Assembly (NCBI GenBank): GCA_903922605.1
Contig: CAIXUG010000025.1
Span: 1 to 45,290 of the forward strand
Direction: 5' to 3'
From: an uncultured Verrucomicrobiota bacterium
GTDB taxonomy: Bacteria; Verrucomicrobiota; Verrucomicrobiia; Limisphaerales; UBA9464
Length of the DNA stretch: 45,290 nucleotides
Part shown: positions 1-7,286 of the stretch, in pieces
Numbering within the stretch: the stretch's first letter is position 1
How the letters are laid out: each line of letters begins with the position of its first letter
Position numbers and translations under genes: made by a program
The notes under the pieces: generated by a model
Databases searched by the model: none
Seen by the model: only the letters and a program-made list of their open reading frames with translations
Told to the model about the DNA's origin: nothing

Positions 1-292
1 GGCATTCGTTCCGTCGCCTGACGCTGCCCTCGGCGACGGGGACGGCGCAGCGCACCGTCCCTACCCATTCGTCCGATTATCATCGGGAAATGGTATAATA
101 CCAGTTCCCGGAAAGAATCGGTGCAATGGTAGGGATGGCGCGCTGCTGCGCCGGCCCCGCCCAGAAGGGGCGGCAGAGGCGTGCGGAGACCGCCGGCATT
201 CGTTCCGTCGCCTGACGCTGCCCTCGGCGACGGGGACGGCGCAGCGCACCGTCCCTACCCATTCGTCCGATTATCATCGGGAAATGGTATAA
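1..292. repeat. Imperfect palindromic repeat with duplicated left arm
   Basis: A 98-bp sequence at 1-98 is repeated exactly at 195-292 (period 194). Between the copies, 99-194 is largely the reverse complement of the same arm. The centre at 84-110 folds as CGGGAA-TGGTATAATACCA-TTCCCG. Further out, GGCGCAGCGC..CCGTCCCTACC at about 46-66 matches GGTAGGGATGGCGCGCTGCTGCGCC at 127-151. The order is therefore arm, reversed arm, arm. It looks like a MITE or REP-type non-coding element that gained an extra arm. No convincing gene lies in this stretch. The element may start before the window. Confidence 0.75.
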
Positions 293-340
293 GTCGCTTC
301 CCCGAAGGCCGGATTGGAGACCGAAGCTCTGACCCTTGAA

Positions 341-374
341 GAAAACAAAAAGGGCCGGGCTTGCGCCCGGCCCT
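341..374 (-). terminator. Intrinsic terminator of ilvB
   Basis: On the minus strand, after the ilvB stop, a perfect 10-bp GC stem (AGGGCCGGGC / GCCCGGCCCT, 351-374, loop TTGC) is followed by a T-rich run (341-350). It closes the ilvB transcript with no further gene, so ilvB appears to be the last gene of its unit and no ilvN follows it here. Confidence 0.85.
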
Positions 375-405
375 GAAGGAGTCGTCGTGGCAACCTTGTC
401 GCAGT

Positions 406-2289
406 TCAGTACTTCATGTCGGCCACGGTGCGGCCGGCGGGGATGAACGGGAGCACGTGCTCGGCGTAGGGCGTCATCACGTTCAGCACGTAGGCCGTCT
501 TCGAGTCGAGCATGCGCTGGAGCGCGGCCCGAAGGTCGCGGCGGAAGATGACCTGCTCGGCCGGCACATTGAAGCTGTTGCAGACGCGCACGTAGTCGGG
601 ATAGACCTGCGCCCGATGCTCAGGGTCGCCGAGGTAGGTGTGACCACGGTTGCCGGCGAAGAAGTTGTCCTCCCACTGCACCACCATGCCGAGGTGCTGG
701 TTGTTCAGGATGATGGCCTTCGCGGCGATCTTCTCGACGTGCGCGGTGGCCAGCTCCTGCACGTTCATGAGGAACGAGCCGTCGCCGTCGATGTCCACGA
801 CCTGCTTGTCGGGACGGGCCACCTTCGCGCCGAGCGCGGCGGGATAGCCGTAGCCCATCGAGCCGAGGCCGCCCGAGGTGATGAAGGTGCGGGGCTCGCC
901 GTACTTGAACCACTGGCCGGACCACATCTGGTGCTGGCCGACGCCCGTCGTGATGATCGCGTCGCCGCCGGTCATCTCGTAGAGCATCTCGATCACCATC
1001 TGCGGCAGGATGACCTGGTCTTCCTGGCCCTTCAGATGATCCTTCATGTGATCGCTGTTCGAAATCTCAGGGGTGACCTCATAGTGGAAGGAACCCTTCT
1101 TCTTCCACTCCGCGATCTGCGCGTGCCAGGCCGGATAGGTCTTCTGGGTGCCCGTGCGCTTCGCGAGCAGCGCGTTCAGGCGCGTGAGCGCATCCCGGAT
1201 GTCGCCGTGGATGGCGAGCTGCACACGCTTGTTCTTGTTGTGCTCGGAGGCGTCGAGGTCGATGTGGACGATCGTCGCGTGCTTCGCGAACTCGCTGAAC
1301 GCACCGGTGACGCGGTCATCGAAGCGCACGCCGAACGCGAGCAGCAGGTCGGCACCGTCCTTGAGGCGCACCATCGGCTGCGTGGGATCCTTGCGCGGCT
1401 CGAACTCGCCGCTGACGGCCCAGTTGGCCACGGCCGAACCGTGCATGCCGAGCCAGCGCATCGAGAGCGGATGCGTCTCCGGGAAACCGCCGATGCCCAT
1501 GAGCGTCGTGGTCACCGGGATCTGCGTCGCCTCGGCGAACTTCTTCAGCTCGGCCGCCGCGCCGCTGGTGATGATGCCGCCGCCGCAGTAGAGCACGGGG
1601 CGCTCGGCCTTCTCGATGAGGCCGATAATCTCGTTCAGCTCGAGGTCGCCCGCCACCACGTCGGGATTGTAGCCGCGCAACCCCTTCTTGATCTCGTCGA
1701 GCGTGGGCCAGACGGGCTGGGCCTTGGCCTGCTGGATGTTCTTGGGGAAATCGAGCACCACGGGACCGGGCCGGCCGGATTCGGCGATGTAGAACGCCTC
1801 CGCGACGATGCGGGGGATGTCCTTGATGTCCGTGATGAGATAGCTGTGCTTCACGATCGGCAGCGTGACGCCGACCATGTCCGTCTCCTGGAAGGCGCCG
1901 CGGCCGATCATCGCCTGGGTCACCTGGCCGGTGATGGCGATGAGCGGGCAGGAATCCATGTAGGCGTCGGCGATGGCGGTGACGAGGTTCGTCGCGCCGG
2001 GGCCGCTGGTGCCCATGCACACACCGGCCTTGCCGGTCGCGCGGGCGTAACCCTCGGCGGCGAAGCTGCCGCCCTGCTCATGGCGGGGCAGGATCGTGCG
2101 GATCTTGGACTTCGTGAGCGACTGGTGGATCTCCATGCTCGCGCCGCCCGGGTAGGCGAAGATGACCTCGACGCCGGCGCGTTCGAGGGCCTCGACAAAG
2201 ATGTCGCGCCCCAGCATCACGGGGCCGACTTCCTTGCCCGGCTGGGCGGAGGCGGCGGTTTTCTTGTCGTTTGATGTCGCGTTGCTCAT
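406..2289 (-). CDS. ilvB: Acetolactate synthase large subunit
   Basis: Thiamine-diphosphate enzyme that condenses two pyruvates to acetolactate, or pyruvate and 2-ketobutyrate to acetohydroxybutyrate; first common step of valine, leucine and isoleucine synthesis, cytosolic. The 627-residue product has the full three-domain layout. An N-terminal PYR domain has [13 protein letters not shown] with the catalytic Glu region HEQGG. A middle domain follows. The C-terminal PP domain has the ThDP/Mg motif [12 protein letters not shown] and the family motif [15 protein letters not shown]. The first ~25 residues are a low-complexity extension. The ATG is preceded by a weak A-rich site (AGAAAAAGACAC). 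Upstream lies an attenuator with a Val/Leu leader peptide, so expression probably answers branched-chain aminoacyl-tRNA supply. No regulatory subunit gene (ilvN) is adjacent within the window. Confidence 0.96.
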
Positions 2290-2337
2290 GTGTCTTTTTC
2301 TAGGTGTGGGCCGGGACGGCGTCGGTCTTTTGGCGAC

Positions 2338-2370
2338 AAAAAACCCACGGCCGTTGCCAGCCGTGGGTTT
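2338..2370 (-). terminator. Attenuator terminator in the ilvB leader
   Basis: Read on the minus strand, AAACCCACGGC (2370-2360), an 8-nt loop and GCCGTGGGTTT (2351-2341) form a perfect 11-bp stem followed by six U (2343-2338). It sits 15 nt after the leader-peptide stop codon and about 48 nt before the ilvB start. An upstream segment GG-A-CCGTTG (2401-2393) can pair with CAACGGCC (2356-2349), which includes part of the terminator 3' arm, giving a mutually exclusive antiterminator of 8 pairs with one bulged A. This is the standard layout of ribosome-mediated attenuation. The alternative pairing was drawn by eye and not computed. Confidence 0.85.
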
Positions 2371-2384
2371 GGTTGAAAGCGTTG

Positions 2385-2459
2385 TTACGCACCAACGGTC
2401 CCCGCGGCGGCATCGCCACCGGCTACGAGGACTACTACAAGTTGTGCGCCAAACTGCAT
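2385..2459 (-). CDS. ilvB leader peptide (attenuation, ivbL-like)
   Basis: A 24-codon ORF, ATG at 2459 and TAA ending at 2385, reads [15 protein letters not shown] then DAAAGTVGA. Codons 7-12 are CTT GTA GTA GTC CTC GTA (Leu-Val-Val-Val-Leu-Val). A Val/Leu codon block upstream of a terminator and ilvB is the signature of branched-chain amino-acid attenuation, as in the E. coli ilvBN leader peptide (Val-rich with Leu). A ribosome stalled at these codons would leave 2401-2393 free to pair with 2356-2349 and break the terminator. No Shine-Dalgarno precedes the ATG; the promoter spacing suggests a leaderless message. Function is inferred from arrangement, not homology. Confidence 0.85.
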
Positions 2460-2467
2460 TTGAAAGG

Positions 2468-2497
2468 AGTAAACAGAGGGGATGGCCCGTGGGTCAA
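2468..2497 (-). promoter_or_regulatory. Candidate sigma70-type promoter of the ilvB leader
   Basis: On the minus strand TTGACC (2497-2492) and TTTACT (2473-2468) are separated by 18 nt. They match TTGACA at 5/6 and TATAAT at 4/6. A start about 7 nt downstream falls at 2459-2462, on or next to the leader-peptide ATG, which would explain the missing ribosome binding site. The assignment is by eye, and a 17-nt spacer reading is also possible. Confidence 0.5.
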
Positions 2498-2525
2498 GTC
2501 CGCAATGCGGCTCGGTTGAGTGAGA

Positions 2526-2609
2526 CAGTGATCAGTAGGTCAGTAATCAGTAAATGCTGTTTCCCGTCTTCACCGACTGATCACTGATCACTGGCCTACT
2601 GGTTCACTG
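2526..2609. repeat. Heptamer-type repeat, inverted (CAGTGAT family)
   Basis: Left arm 2526-2551 and right arm 2576-2609 carry repeated CAGT words spaced 7-8 bp in opposite orientations (GATCAGT units on the left, ACTGATC units on the right), so the locus is also an imperfect inverted repeat. The right arm includes the last codons and stop (2596) of the haloperoxidase gene. It belongs to the set of short-period intergenic repeats seen throughout this window. Confidence 0.65.
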
Positions 2610-3960
2610 GCTCCGGTTCCGGCCGGCGGCGCGGACGGAACGCAATCCACAGCAGGACGACCATCATCGCGATCCGCACGGTGATCCACACCCAGTCCAT
2701 CCCACGGCGGGGAGGGTCCACCGGATGCAAGGCATGCTCAAACGCCCAGTCGCCCACTTTCTTGCCCAGCGCCTGCCCGTCCAGATCGGCGGAGGCAAAG
2801 TGAATGCCCCCCCAGATGCGGCTCCGGCCAATCTCCGTCACCACGCTGCTCAGCGAAGTGTAGCTGCGGGTCACTCCCGGTACGGTGTCGCTGCTGATGC
2901 TGAAGGCCAGGTCGTCACGGCCGAACCACCGGCGCAACACTTCCGCACCCGCCGCCGTGTAGGTGCTGTGCCCGCTCACGTAATCCGGAAAGGCCGGCGC
3001 GGGCAGCAGCGATTCCCAGTTGGGATCGGGTACCGTTAGGGGATTGCCATTGTCCGCGCGGATGGCCGCCGTGACCGGCCGCCAGAAATTATAGGCGTAC
3101 TTCGTGTCCCAGCAGGCAATGCCGGCATCCGACAGGGCGATGTGGACGAGTGCCAGCAGGCGCGCCTTGTCGGGCAGGCTGAGCCGGTTGCTCTGCGCGA
3201 GGGCGAGAGTGATCTGCGTCCAATGGCCCGGCGGCGTCACCGTGCCGGAAAAATCGCTCCAGAACCGCGCCGCCAGGGTCTGGTCGGCGGTGCGGGTGGT
3301 GCTGTTTTTCGCCCCAAGGCTCTTCACCTCGTTGTAATCGGCCACGTAACGGTCGCTCGTCAGGGCCGGTGGACCCGGTGGACGGAACTGGGCGGCATTC
3401 GTCAGCGCGAACGGCTTCACCAGCCCCCAGTGCGGGAGGTCCGGGGGCCGAAACCACGGAGGCGTGCGCCGCCAGGCCCCGGGGGTGTTCGTCGGGATGT
3501 AGGGCACCTGCGTGTTGCTGCCGTCGGCGGCCCGCGCCTCGACGATGGCGTCGGCGCTGGCGAACCCGAGCTGAAAGCCGGCCGTCCGGGCGGCGGTATC
3601 CGGCAGATTGGTCTGCGTGGCCGTCCAGAGCGCCTCAAAGTCCGCCCGCCGCGACGGAAACAGCACGAGCGCGGTGCGATAGGCGGCGGCGGCCACGGCG
3701 GCCTCCATACTGGCATCCGGGCTGGCGTTGGTCGGGACGAAAAGATAGGGCCGCCAGCGGTGCTGGATGGCGTTCACCGCGTCCGCGACGGCGATGCTGT
3801 ACATCGCCATGCTGCGCGCACCCAGGGGGGGCGTGTTGTTCTCGGCCTTCAGCGCCCGCAAATAGGCGGCGGACCAGTCGTCCAGGGCATCGGCCCCGGC
3901 CGAAAAAACAAGGCCCGCCGCGAAGAGTGTCGCAGCGAGCCATTGGAAGGACGATTTCAC
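2596..3960 (-). CDS. Vanadium haloperoxidase / PAP2-type phosphatase, exported
   Basis: Member of the vanadium-dependent haloperoxidase/acid phosphatase superfamily, which oxidises halide with H2O2 or hydrolyses phosphoesters at one shared anion site. With the GTG start at 3960 the product has 454 residues. Residues 1-25 form a signal peptide (SSFQWLAATLFAAGLVFSAGADA). Anion-site motifs are present: K-x6-RP (K287, R294), SGH (S329-H331) and SR-x5-H (R381, H387). A membrane segment near 422-441 followed by FRPRRRP suggests C-terminal anchoring. The reading frame stays open far upstream without a good start, and the GTG was chosen because it begins a textbook signal peptide. Haloperoxidase versus phosphatase activity cannot be decided by eye. 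The stop lies inside a heptamer repeat. Confidence 0.85.
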   Translation of the reverse strand: MKSSFQWLAATLFAAGLVFSAGADALDDWSAAYLRALKAENNTPPLGARSMAMYSIAVADAVNAIQHRWRPYLFVPTNASPDASMEAAVAAAAYRTALVLFPSRRADFEALWTATQTNLPDTAARTAGFQLGFASADAIVEARAADGSNTQVPYIPTNTPGAWRRTPPWFRPPDLPHWGLVKPFALTNAAQFRPPGPPALTSDRYVADYNEVKSLGAKNSTTRTADQTLAARFWSDFSGTVTPPGHWTQITLALAQSNRLSLPDKARLLALVHIALSDAGIACWDTKYAYNFWRPVTAAIRADNGNPLTVPDPNWESLLPAPAFPDYVSGHSTYTAAGAEVLRRWFGRDDLAFSISSDTVPGVTRSYTSLSSVVTEIGRSRIWGGIHFASADLDGQALGKKVGDWAFEHALHPVDPPRRGMDWVWITVRIAMMVVLLWIAFRPRRRPEPEPVNQ

Positions 3961-4055
3961 ACCGCAAGCAAAACGAAGCGCCCCGCCCACGGCAAGCCTG
4001 ATGCCAGCCACACGGCCCTGCGTGGATCGAAACCGCAGGAGTTTTGGCACAGGTC

Positions 4056-4544
4056 CTAAGTGGCGGGTTTGTCCGTCGGCGCCTCGGCTTTCAGATGGGT
4101 GAAGTTGCCCTGCTCGCAGCAGGCCACGAAGTTTTCCGTCACCGTCTTCAGCTCCTCCCAGCGCTTGCGGATGTCCCTGGCCTCGGTGGCGTTGATCTGG
4201 TTGTCGGCCGCCGCCACGGCGATCACCGACAGGAGATCGGCGAATTCCTGCACAATCTCGTTGGTCGCCGGGATGAGAAACTCCGGATGGGCGAGATGCG
4301 TCTTGGGGTTCTTGATGAAAAAGCCGCCGGCGCGCTGGCAGATCCAGTGGACGATCCGGGGATCCTTCGTGCACTGGATCAGCTGGTCCACGCGGTCGAG
4401 CGGGTTGGTACCGCCCGTGCCCAGTTCCTCGTTCGGCGTCTCCGCCCACTTGTAGATGAGCGAGAGCGACAGGTTGAGGTCGGCCGCGATCTGTTTCGCG
4501 CTGGTGGTCTGAAGCACTTCGCGTAGGACTTCGTGGGACTGCAT
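4056..4544 (-). CDS. CII-like (Phage_CP76-type) helix-turn-helix regulator
   Basis: A 162-residue cytosolic protein. Residues ~5-35 look like a DNA-binding helix-turn-helix (LREVLQTTSAKQIAADLNLS then LSLIYKWAE). The middle (NPLDRVDQLIQCTKDPRIV, HWICQRAGGFFI) resembles the phage regulatory CII/CP76 family, with long helices at the C-terminus. It ends about 95 bp upstream of the haloperoxidase start on the same strand and is divergent from the gene at 4719. No other phage gene lies nearby, so it is probably a resident chromosomal regulator of the kind common in this phylum. Its target is unknown; the family call is from memory. Confidence 0.7.
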   Translation of the reverse strand: MQSHEVLREVLQTTSAKQIAADLNLSLSLIYKWAETPNEELGTGGTNPLDRVDQLIQCTKDPRIVHWICQRAGGFFIKNPKTHLAHPEFLIPATNEIVQEFADLLSVIAVAAADNQINATEARDIRKRWEELKTVTENFVACCEQGNFTHLKAEAPTDKPAT

Positions 4545-4573
4545 GACCCGGTTCTAGCGTCCCCGCCTCGCGG

Positions 4574-4608
4574 GGAGAAGGATGAAGTAGGAAGGATGAA
4601 TGATGAAG
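4574..4608. repeat. Heptamer tandem repeat (GATGAAG family)
   Basis: Five degenerate 7-bp units in register: GGAGAAG, GATGAAG, TAGGAAG, GATGAAT, GATGAAG. It lies in the 174-bp gap between two divergently transcribed genes. No promoter could be assigned with confidence in the rest of that gap. Confidence 0.7.
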
Positions 4609-4718
4609 CGGGCAAGGGGCGGACAGAGAGCGCAAGGGGGCGCGAGAGGGCCAATCCGTGAGTATTTGTCACCGAGGCTTTCTTTGCGCTCCGCGACCGG
4701 CGCTGGCATAACGCGCAC

Positions 4719-7286
4719 ATGTTACGCCGTGCCCTTTGCCTCCTCACCCTGTGCGGCTGGCCCCTGCAGGCGAAACCCAGCGGCCCGGCGGTCGCGCCGA
4801 TCCTTCCCGGGGCCAAGGTGGACGGTTCGGTGCTGCTGCCGAACCAGTGGTCGCTGCGGCCCGTCGGCAAACAGGTCGTGCTGGGGGATTTCCCGGTCAA
4901 CATCGCGGTGCATCCCTCGGGAGATTATTGCGTGGTGCTGCATTCCGGATACAGCGCGCATGAGCTGACCGTCGTCGCGCTGCCGGCTGGCAAGGTGGTT
5001 TCCCGCGTGGAGATCGCGGAGTCCTTTTACGGCCTGGCGTTTTCACCCGACGGCACGCGGGTCTATTGCAGCGGGGCGGGCGACGAGGTGATCCACATGT
5101 TCAGCTTCAAGGGCGGCTACCTTGCCGATCCGCAGGACCTCAGGCTCCGGGCGGTGACCGAGCGCGGCGTGCCCGGCGGCATCTCCCTGAGCGCCGATGG
5201 CCGGCGGCTCTTTGCAGCCAACGTCTTCGGCCAGGATATCGTCACCGCCGACCTGGAGCGGCGCCAGGCGACCGGTCTCTTTCCCCTGCGGCCCGGAATG
5301 CCCGCAGTGGACCTGAGCCAGACGAAGCTTCCCGACGATCTCGAGTCCGCCGCCGCCATAAAGCGCGAAATGGCGCTGAAGGACACCCTTCCGGCCGATG
5401 CGCCGTTTCCCTATTCATGCGTATACGACGAGGCACGGGACCGGCTGTACGTGAGCCTTTGGGCACTGGCCGAGGTGGCCGTGTTGGACGCAAAGACCGG
5501 CACGGTGCAGGCCCGCTGGAAAACGGAGGAACATCCGTGCGAAATGCTGCTCTCCAAGTCCGGCAAGATTCTTTACGTCGCCAACGCCGCCCGCAATTCC
5601 GTCTCCGTGATTGACGTGGAATCCGGCCATGCCCTGGAGACGCTGACGGCCGCGATGTCGGCGGACGCCCTGCCCGGCTCGACGCCCAACTCGCTCGCGC
5701 TCACTCCGGACGGGGAGTTCCTGTTCGTTGCCAATGCGGGCAACAACAACGTCGCGGTGTTTGACGTGGAAACGCCCGGCAAGAGCCGGTCGCTCGGGTT
5801 CATCCCGGTCGGCTGGTATCCCACCTCGGTGCGCGTCACGCCAGATGGCAAGAACCTGCTCGTGGCCAACGGCAAGGGCCTGCTCTCCCACGCCAACCGC
5901 AACGGCCCGCAGCCGGGACGCGAACCCGCCTCCAGCGTCCGCGAATACATCGGCAGCCTGTTTGCGGGCACGCTCAGCATCATTCCGCTGCCGAAGAAGG
6001 GGGCGGATTTCGAGGAGAAGATGCGCGAGTTCACGGCGCGCGCCTTCAAGTGCAGCCCGCCGGTCGCGGCCGCGCCGGCGACCAGGCCCGGACGCGAGAA
6101 CCCGATCCCGGCAAGAGTCGGCGGCAAAAGCCCGATCCGCTATGTGATCTATGTGATCAAGGAGAACCGCACCTACGACCAGGTACTGGGCGATCTGGCC
6201 GGCGGCAACGGCGACGCGTCGCTGTGCCTCTTCGATGAGAGCATCACGCCGAACCATCACGCGCTCGCGCGTGAGTTTGTGCTGCTCGACAACTTCTACG
6301 TGGACAGCGAAGTCAGTGCCGACGGCCACGAATGGAGCGTCGGCGGCTACGCGACCGACTTCGTGGAAAAGACCTGGCCGCTCAACTACGGCCATGGCGC
6401 CAAGGGCAAGATCCCCTACCCCAGCGAAGGGACACTGCCCGTCGCCTACCCCGCCAGCGGCTACCTTTGGGACCGCGCGCGGCAGGCGGGCGTGAGCTTC
6501 CGCAGCTATGGTGAATTCTGCGTGGTGGGCACGACGACCAATGAACCGGCGCACACGCGCATCGCCTCGCTCGAAGGCCACTTCGACCCCGGCTATCGCC
6601 CGTGGGACCTGACCTATCCCGACGTGAAGCGGGCGGAGCATTTTGCCGAGGAGCTGAAACGCTTCGAGCGCGAGGGTGATATGCCCCGCCTGCAAATCAT
6701 GCGCCTGCCCAACGATCACACCTACGGCACCTCGGTCGGCAAGCTCACCCCGCGCGCAATGGTCGCCGACAACGACCTCGCCTTCGGCCGTCTCGTCGAA
6801 GCGGTGTCGCATTCGAAGTTCTGGCCGCAGACCGCCATCTTCGTGCTGGAGGACGATGCGCAGAACGGTCCCGACCACGTGGACGCCCACCGTTCCATCG
6901 CCTTCGTCATCAGCCCCTATGTCAAACGGCATTCCCACGACACGGCGATGTATTCCACCTGCTCGATGCTGCACACGATGGAGCTGATCCTCGGCCTGAA
7001 GCCGATGACGCAGTTCGACGAGGCCGCAGCCCCGATGTTCGGCACGTTTCAGGCGCAACCTGACCTGCACCCGTTCCGCGCCGTGCCCGTCACGTTGGAC
7101 CGCAACGAAAAGAACGTCGCGTCCGCCTGGGGCAGCCGGGAATCCGCCGCGATGGACTTCACGAAGGAGGATGCCGTGGACGATCTGCTGCTGAATCGCG
7201 TGATCTGGCACGCCATTAAAGGTGCCGAAAGCCTCATGCCCGGCCCCGTGCGGGCGGCCTTCGTGCTCGGCGGCGACGACGACTGA
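4719..7286 (+). CDS. Bifunctional YncE-type beta-propeller / phosphoesterase, exported
   Basis: 855 residues. A signal peptide (MLRRALCLLTLCGWPLQA) is followed by a seven-bladed-type propeller of YVTN/YncE repeats to about residue 430 (for example FLFVANAGNNNVAVFDVE and GWYPTSVRVTPDGKNLLVAN). A phosphoesterase/phospholipase C-like domain follows from about 475: IKENRTYDQVLGD with the metal/nucleophile region, DNFYVDSEVSADGHEWS, LPNDHTYGT, and the late metal motif FVLEDDAQNGPDHVDAHR. The alkaline-phosphatase-like domain would hydrolyse a periplasmic or outer-surface phosphoester; the substrate is unknown. This fusion is a recognised architecture in several phyla. It is divergent from the CII-like regulator. 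No clear Shine-Dalgarno is visible; the start was chosen because the signal peptide begins there. Confidence 0.88.
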   Translation: MLRRALCLLTLCGWPLQAKPSGPAVAPILPGAKVDGSVLLPNQWSLRPVGKQVVLGDFPVNIAVHPSGDYCVVLHSGYSAHELTVVALPAGKVVSRVEIAESFYGLAFSPDGTRVYCSGAGDEVIHMFSFKGGYLADPQDLRLRAVTERGVPGGISLSADGRRLFAANVFGQDIVTADLERRQATGLFPLRPGMPAVDLSQTKLPDDLESAAAIKREMALKDTLPADAPFPYSCVYDEARDRLYVSLWALAEVAVLDAKTGTVQARWKTEEHPCEMLLSKSGKILYVANAARNSVSVIDVESGHALETLTAAMSADALPGSTPNSLALTPDGEFLFVANAGNNNVAVFDVETPGKSRSLGFIPVGWYPTSVRVTPDGKNLLVANGKGLLSHANRNGPQPGREPASSVREYIGSLFAGTLSIIPLPKKGADFEEKMREFTARAFKCSPPVAAAPATRPGRENPIPARVGGKSPIRYVIYVIKENRTYDQVLGDLAGGNGDASLCLFDESITPNHHALAREFVLLDNFYVDSEVSADGHEWSVGGYATDFVEKTWPLNYGHGAKGKIPYPSEGTLPVAYPASGYLWDRARQAGVSFRSYGEFCVVGTTTNEPAHTRIASLEGHFDPGYRPWDLTYPDVKRAEHFAEELKRFEREGDMPRLQIMRLPNDHTYGTSVGKLTPRAMVADNDLAFGRLVEAVSHSKFWPQTAIFVLEDDAQNGPDHVDAHRSIAFVISPYVKRHSHDTAMYSTCSMLHTMELILGLKPMTQFDEAAAPMFGTFQAQPDLHPFRAVPVTLDRNEKNVASAWGSRESAAMDFTKEDAVDDLLLNRVIWHAIKGAESLMPGPVRAAFVLGGDDD

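Follow-up and report, generated by a model that had tools for sequence, protein, structure and literature searches.

The ilvB gene of this uncultured member of the Verrucomicrobiota is very probably governed by a ribosome-mediated transcription attenuator, which would tie its expression to the supply of charged Val-tRNA (and of Leu- and Ile-tRNA). The gene is located on the minus strand of the window, i.e. the entire stretch of 45,290 nt that was analysed, and the features of the element are listed in Table 1. Codons for the products of the pathway in a short ORF, a terminator between this ORF and the gene, a conserved antiterminator that excludes the terminator and a fitting ribosome geometry are all present. 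The ORF, its codon block, the position of its stop codon, both helices with their mutual exclusion, the conservation and a Leu-coded counterpart before leuA can be read from the sequences themselves. An attenuator had already been proposed by a sequence-only reading for positions 2338–2497, a span that extends from the U run to the -35-like TTGACC (2497–2492). The comparison with relatives supports this proposal through the conserved ORF, the codon block and the exclusive helices, and adds the leucine-coded twin before leuA, which was new to that reading, as were the probably leaderless transcript and the prevalence of the rare GTA among the Val codons.

Table 1 Features of the ilvB locus in the window
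Feature	Position	Strand	Basis or remark
-35-like box TTGACC	2492..2497	-	TTGAC/TTGAA at similar distance in relatives
-10-like box TTTACT	2468..2473	-	18-nt spacer; alternative GTTTAC 2474-2469 with 17-nt spacer
Predicted transcription start	2459..2461	-	inferred from promoter-to-start distance; 0-2 nt before leader AUG
Leader peptide ORF, 24 codons, ATG at 2459, TAA 2387-2385	2385..2459	-	sequence and relatives
Regulatory codon block CTT GTA GTA GTC CTC GTA (L-V-V-V-L-V)	2424..2441	-	direct reading
Antiterminator 5' arm GCCG-C-GGG-GACC-GUUGG, formed by the last leader codons	2392..2408	-	fold and aligned relatives
Antiterminator 3' arm UCAAC-CAAA-CCC-A-CGGC, sharing sequence with the 5' arm of the terminator	2360..2376	-	fold and aligned relatives
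Intrinsic terminator hairpin AAACCCACGGCUG-GCAA-CGGCCGUGGGUUU	2341..2370	-	fold and aligned relatives
Terminator U run, six U	2338..2343	-	direct reading
ilvB, acetolactate synthase large subunit, 627 aa, regulated gene	406..2289	-	TIGR00118
GC-rich hairpin followed by a U-rich stretch, directly 3' of ilvB	352..373	-	direct reading

The product of ilvB was assigned to the biosynthetic type of the acetolactate synthase large subunit (TIGR00118, 651.6 bits with a cut-off of 538.35). The distance between the terminator and the gene is 48 nt in the window. The hairpin directly behind ilvB is the probable terminator of the gene, so that ilvB probably stands alone; in L034, a near relative, the long ORF that comes next runs towards ilvB. 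A generic pattern scan of the window reported neither the leader promoter nor the leader terminator, and the case therefore rests on comparison. Two kinds of repeats were observed around the locus. A 98-nt perfect direct repeat (window 1–98 and 195–292) is located downstream of ilvB at the contig end, and TGATCAGT-type repeats with inverted arms that are 83% complementary were found at 2519–2600, just upstream of the leader promoter. The latter were not seen in the upstream stretch of L034.

Relatives of ilvB were obtained from 50 genomes of the family, 47 of which had a match and yielded the 30 loci taken, and from a scan of named GTDB genomes, which contributed the best 80 of 304 relatives. 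After removal of duplicates, 84 distinct ilvB upstream regions were available; the order referred to in the counts is taken to be Limisphaerales (NCBI lineage). A terminator is present in each of the 84 regions (83 by script, L088 by direct reading) and a complete leader ORF rich in branched-chain amino acids (BCAA) in 82 of them (81 by script, L088 by eye), while the remaining two, L040 and L084, begin inside the element at a contig start. The 24-codon ORF with Leu-Val-Val-Val-Leu-Val codons that had been noticed in the window was confirmed by direct reading of the minus strand (2459–2385). Relatives with the hairpin but without the ORF or the codon block, which the earlier reading had named as the pattern that would speak against it, were not found: ORF and terminator occur together in 82 of 84, and the two others are truncated at a contig end.

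The number of Ile, Leu and Val codons per leader has a median of 8 and ranges from 3 to 12 in 81 relatives. These three residues account for 34% of all residues in the leader frame, compared to 21% and 8% in the other frames, and the third bases are mixed. Such an in-frame BCAA excess with mixed third bases points to a constraint on the ORF at the protein level. The peptides vary between MFGQIRQVIAVVVVVVGDAVGTGRG and reduced forms, MSAKRNRVPVSVGGPKAADGTCRNA among them; the block is reduced to 3 BCAA codons in L098, L104, L107 and L108, in which two or three Val codons are GTA. The C-termini GACR, GTCRA and AAVGF are recurrent among the leaders. The first in-frame ATG of ilvB follows at least 37 nt past the terminator stem, at 37–60 nt in 76 of 83 regions, leaving little space for a separate promoter.

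In 78 of 81 ilvB leaders, TTGAC or TTGAA is located 35–41 nt before the leader start, a distance that was partly selected, as the script preferred, among in-frame starts, the one with a box 34–46 nt upstream. The three exceptions are L078 and L080, which have no box at that distance, and L099, which is cut by the contig end. A -10-like hexamer (loose TA...T-like consensus) ends 6–12 nt before the start in 78 relatives, but was chosen by score, so that its distance is no independent test. Shine-Dalgarno-like 4-mers at -16 to -4 were observed in none of the 81 ilvB leaders versus 7 of 45 ilvB starts examined. We consider it likely that the ilvB leader transcript is leaderless or nearly so.

The terminator of the window is composed of a 5' arm (2370–2358), a GCAA loop (2357–2354) and a 3' arm (2353–2341). 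Its 13 pairs include A-U pairs that overlap the U run, and when these are counted the structure agrees with the 11-bp terminator with six U described previously. The gap between the leader stop and the arm of the 13-pair terminator is 14 nt. Terminator pairing was found in 97.9% of cells of the alignment (79 distinct of 81 aligned leaders), with three pairs showing double changes. The 151-nt leader folds better than its dinucleotide shuffles (z -4.2), none of 200 shuffles being as good.

The lower stem of the window's antiterminator is formed by GCCG (2408–2405) and GGG (2403–2401) with CCC (2367–2365) and CGGC (2363–2360), and its upper part by GUUGG (2396–2392) with UCAAC (2376–2372) above a 4 × 4 internal loop. 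A small apical stem contains the leader stop codon. Compared to dinucleotide shuffles, this segment has a z of -2.3. An alternative helix of eight pairs using terminator sequence had been part of the sequence-only reading. A helix of that kind is indeed conserved in relatives, while the proposed one came without coordinates by which it could be matched to the helix at 2408–2360.

The typical antiterminator of the relatives is GCCG-N-N-GG-N-N-CUUGUC with GACAAG-A-ACCC-A-CGGC. Pairing occurs in 74.7% of cells (81 aligned leaders, 79 distinct), counted in a fixed 16-column register that includes four mostly mismatched positions. Double changes were found in 8 pairs, a number reached by 15 of 500 shuffles, and the covariation score of 0.078 was reached by 0 of 500. 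Sliding the partner by 1–3 columns lowers the pairing to 21–54%; at a slide of +1, about 50% of the cells are paired and the covariation score is still 0.070. Antiterminator covariation alone therefore gives modest support, because of this +1 score and because related sequences can beat shuffles without structure. Hardly any variation occurs in the pairs that adjoin the terminator. Different upper stems occur at the same place, i.e. GUUGG/UCAAC in the window, AUUCGUU/AACGAAU in L043 and GUUGCG/CGCAAC in L109. When folded alone, the antiterminator segments of the 81 sequences yielded a mean z of -2.5, with 69 values below -1.5 and 2 above 0. The lineage of L041, L106 and L109 lacks the z signal for this segment (-0.4, 0.6 and -0.2). 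A protector (1:2) helix of the codon block with the antiterminator arm was not convincingly conserved (mean z -1.2; 27 of 81 below -1.5).

Ribosome positions were simulated on the third BCAA codon (stalled) or on the stop codon, and the terminator arm CCACGGC was scored as paired upstream if at least 5 of its 7 nt were so paired. In the stalled position, upstream pairing of the arm was obtained for 74 of 81 leaders. When the ribosome was placed at the stop codon, none of the 81 leaders showed it and all 81 formed the terminator. For the leader of the window itself, the stalled position gave 4 of 7 paired arm bases, which is just below the cut and weaker than in most relatives.

In the mechanism that we propose, the promoter, the leaderless start, translation, stalling, the efficiency of termination and the direction of the response are all predicted. 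RNA polymerase would start on the leader AUG or no more than about 2 nt away from it, and the leaderless RNA end would be bound by a ribosome that then follows the polymerase. If Val-tRNA is short, the ribosome would stall in the Val/Leu block, leaving the last leader codons free to pair with the terminator 5' arm once this has been made. The antiterminator formed in this way would prevent the terminator, and ilvB would be transcribed. If Val-tRNA is plentiful, the ribosome would reach the stop codon near the antiterminator apex and cover the antiterminator 5' arm, upon which the terminator would form and transcription would end 48 nt before ilvB.

Part of the conservation might have a different origin if the released leader transcript or peptide also acted in trans, like rnTrpL and peTrpL of Sinorhizobium meliloti. 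A transcript start at or near the AUG, as given for rnTrpL in the available part of PMC7298713, and the recurring C-termini GACR, GTCRA and AAVGF are in line with such a role, but the conserved C-terminal codons coincide with the antiterminator arm and are explained without any function of the peptide. We regard an additional trans action as improbable.

The attenuator reading is strengthened by the leaders of leuA. The first of these was encountered as a weak match (L169), within the order, of R1, a covariance model of the ilvB leader element that was used with a threshold of E 0.001, and turned out to be a Leu-rich leader before leuA. A search of 96 genomes of the order for leuA gave matches in 50 (E 1e-80), of which the best 30 loci were read. 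All 30 loci have a Leu-rich leader such as VNRNLNLLLSKALLLAGAAVGF with a terminator (AACCCCACUGCC...GGCGGUGGGGUU) behind it, the leader of L197 having been recognised by the later scripts. The window's own genome has such a leader as well (L199, VIRILSLRLIALALLLSRATVGA). Leu makes up 30% of the residues in the 30 leuA leaders. Their terminator covaries: it is paired in 97.2% of cells, and double changes occur in five of its pairs (0 of 500 shuffles). For the antiterminator, in which GGCAGU-N-GGGUU pairs with AACCCCACUGCC, 85.3% of cells are paired; its covariation was not above that of shuffles (44 of 500). The mean z of this segment is -2.0, with 18 of 30 values below -1.5 and a value of -0.3 for the window's genome.

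For the distance of the -10-like hexamer, 26 of the 30 leuA leaders could be scored; it is 6–7 nt in 19 of these and up to 15 nt in the rest. The start codon is GTG in 22 of 30. The leuA leader of the window's genome scored poorly, but by eye the arrangement TTGCCC, 17 nt, TATACA, 6 nt, GTG was recognised. Fifteen secondary R1 matches from 20 genomes of the order were also read, yielding seven Leu leaders before leuA and eight loci that are not leaders. Four of the seven precede a leuA of the query type and three (L380, L384 and L389) another type; the first 110 residues of the L384 protein, the sole one tested of the three, had NF002086 and TIGR00973 among the best matches. This other type may account for some of the 46 genomes in which leuA was not matched. 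Judged from the leaders read, the codons follow the downstream gene, Val with ilvB and Leu with leuA, and the layout is unchanged.

This correspondence bears on the possibility that the leader is translated and the terminator regulated, but by some general signal (ppGpp, the arrival of a ribosome, a ligand or a binding protein) instead of the Val and Leu codons, as has been suspected for ilvB of Streptomyces. Attenuator-like ilvB and leuA leaders of Streptomyces show non-classical behaviour upon codon mutation, and codon changes in the ilvB leader of Streptomyces coelicolor were without effect, according to the accessible portion of PMC1262725. Some of the relatives studied here have three BCAA codons only (L098, L104, L107 and L108). 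These reduced leaders nevertheless retain two or three GTA codons, the codon content tracks the downstream gene in the same layout, and no Rfam aptamer matched in positions 1–6000 of the window or in ten other loci. A general signal appears improbable, and stalling at the Val and Leu codons remains the preferred explanation.

Scans of trpE and hisG in the order (30 loci each from 38 genomes each), which served as negative controls, revealed no cognate leader followed by a terminator within 350 nt upstream of the open frame's first start codon, a range from which leaders at a distant operon promoter would escape. Upstream of trpE, short frames with four Trp but without a following terminator were seen at L204, L213, L217 and L231, which may be due to chance or to readings in another frame. 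A conserved ORF of 33 residues rich in Lys/Arg, MGSLKKRRKxKINKHKRRKxLRxxRHKKRTWQK, was found upstream of hisG at 8 of 30 loci (L233, L236, L239, L242, L244, L247 with MGSI, L254 and L255), the script listing one ORF per locus. Short ORFs of the form MSxWQRxS... were observed directly before terminators at L382 and L391 and also at L385 and L392, partly upstream of a transporter-like ORF; they may constitute another leader family.

The valine codons of the leaders differ from those of the genes. In 81 ilvB leaders we counted GTA 220, GTC 137, GTT 78 and GTG 19 times (GTA 48%), compared to GTG 1946, GTC 1556, GTT 242 and GTA 43 times in the corresponding ilvB genes (GTA 1.1%). GTA is also rare in 30 leuA genes (2.1%) and in 30 trpE open frames (3.2%). 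At least one GTA is present in all 81 scripted leaders and two or more are present in 70. The 21 leaders with at most four Val codons have GTA in 59 of 76 cases, although many of these leaders are closely related and not independent. A comparable shift to A was not observed for Ala and Gly codons in the leaders, while A-ending Leu codons are mildly raised as well. The bias may have an RNA-level or structural cause.

In a genome of the order that consists of a single contig, tRNA-Val genes were found for the anticodons CAC, UAC and GAC, one for each. No tRNA-Val(UAC) was found in the draft genome of the window, from which the Ile-GAU and Cys tRNAs are missing, too, so that no conclusion was drawn from this absence. 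According to the theory of selective charging, as far as it is set out in the accessible part of PMC1183508, attenuators rely on the codon at which translation responds most strongly to shortage, and an isoacceptor with a high concentration and a low codon usage stays charged. GTA would therefore fit only if tRNA-Val(UAC) is in short supply or GUG drains it. Whether GTA is a selected sensor codon is, in our view, an evenly balanced question. Doubtful, albeit possible, is the wider proposal of an order-wide family of leaderless attenuators in which the ribosome loads on the emerging 5' end of the RNA and hence keeps in step with the polymerase, and in which the valine sensor is the nearly unused GUA, read by a single isoacceptor. 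Should tRNA-Val(UAC) be used almost only for GUA, the theory would predict that it stays charged under starvation; the GUA leaders would then either contradict the theory or indicate that this tRNA is present in small amounts or depleted through the abundant GUG. The notion that leaders choose by a general 'rare codon' rule was considered as well and is unsupported, as the Leu codons of leuA leaders do not track rarity: CTG and CTT are favoured and CTC is avoided (5 of 195 in the leaders versus 476 of 1344 in leuA; L172–L201).

Within the order, the covariance model R1 has matches in 289 of the 320 genomes and, among those of good quality, in 149 of 154; 112 of 118 genera are represented, and the neighbouring ilvB was checked for part of the matches. 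In the window's genome there is one strong match (E 6.7e-28), and a second one (1.9e-6) is the same terminator on the other strand. Two further candidates in this genome, C38 and C6 (E 0.01 and 0.02), were read and rejected as additional copies, being ordinary terminators.

In a sample of 387 genomes of the phylum, 25 match R1 at E ≤ 0.001, mostly weakly, and two of these belong to the order itself. We read 17 of the outside loci (from 16 of 23 genomes) and found three ilvB leaders, the locus L152 and 13 ordinary terminators or unrelated sequences. The three leaders (L154, L163 and L164, family f99) are BCAA leaders before ilvB. The region upstream of ilvB was also read at 30 loci from other orders and classes, three of which have leaders: L289, from the genome of L154, L290, from the genome of L163, and L291, a BCAA leader (MTQFFTVVLVNVVVVLVTSIGSART) before a second ilvB of G358. 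Since the outside matches are mostly terminators and few are leaders, the modelled element is essentially confined to one order.

Two of the outside loci have a particular arrangement. At L289/L154 (G510:C79), in another class, two complete units of BCAA leader and terminator stand in tandem before one ilvB. L152 (G631:C11:395-548), from a different order within the window's class, combines a leader-like ORF (VLKHMSILVAVSAVVAKRDHAAGQLRLE) with a TTGACA box and a CCCACGGC terminator; a methyltransferase-like ORF, a homoserine dehydrogenase and, as judged by eye, a probable threonine synthase follow downstream. L152 is perhaps an Ile/BCAA leader that has moved to the threonine branch.

It is barely credible that the hairpin does no more than terminate transcription from upstream and that the ORF is open by chance: intrinsic terminators are common, several weak R1 matches elsewhere are just that and generic scans flagged neither promoter nor terminator, but ORF, codon block and both helices are kept in 82 of 84 relatives and the box in 78 of 81, R1 matches most of the order, and the terminator stem ends 37–60 nt before the first in-frame ilvB ATG in 76 of 83 regions. 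On these comparative grounds, conservation excludes a chance origin of the leader-terminator arrangement.

In the ilvBN, ilvGMEDA and leu leaders of Escherichia coli and Salmonella, an ORF with regulatory codons ends near a terminator for which an alternative antiterminator exists. The element described here shares the regulatory-codon ORF, the stop codon close to the terminator, the antiterminator and the BCAA genes downstream. It differs in phylum and sequences, in a probably leaderless mRNA with a very close promoter, in an antiterminator 5' arm that consists of the last ORF codons, in GTA as the main Val codon and in the separate Val- and Leu-coded leaders for ilvB and leuA. The three enterobacterial operons are listed as attenuated in the part of PMC1183508 available to us.

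The ilvBNC leader of Corynebacterium (ilvB-II motif) likewise has a Val/Leu/Ile-rich uORF and a terminator/antiterminator before ilvB, as described in the accessible sections of PMC10272879 and PMC11857589. It belongs to an ilvBNC operon of Actinobacteria, for which the sections of the 2025 paper at hand (PMC11857589) give three hairpins, whereas two exclusive helices are well supported here. The ilvB-OMG and Leptospira ilvB motifs are ilvB-associated RNA motifs that their authors re-read as uORF attenuators; in the available parts of the two reports (PMC10272879 and PMC8632094) no Verrucomicrobiota are named, and no Rfam ilvB family matches here. The 5' end of an attenuator transcript coincides with the leader start codon in trpL/rnTrpL of S. 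meliloti, too. That case, in the portion of PMC7298713 available, concerns Trp in Alphaproteobacteria and is experimental, whereas the leaders of the present study concern Val and Leu and their leaderless end is predicted.

No Rfam leader family was detected in positions 1–6000 of the window up to E 10 or in ten other loci up to E 1, ilvB-OMG and Leu_leader included. In the open-access literature, no description of ilvB attenuation, of leader peptides, of ilvB RNA motifs or of leaderless transcription starts in Verrucomicrobia was found, in agreement with the earlier reading, which knew of none for the phylum. The kind of mechanism is known, and its Verrucomicrobiota branch appears to be undescribed in the literature searched.

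Taken together, BCAA attenuation, which is well studied in Proteobacteria and Actinobacteria, would be extended to an order of Verrucomicrobiota known mostly from environmental genomes, whose leader ORFs are too short for routine annotation. The order offers many natural variants of two paired systems, Val/ilvB and Leu/leuA, and its extreme GTA preference provides a broad comparative case for the old question of codon choice in attenuators. The probable leaderless starts bear on the synchronisation of ribosome and polymerase. Based on the conserved leaders, we conclude that members of this order probably sense amino-acid shortage via a stalled ribosome, as E. coli does.
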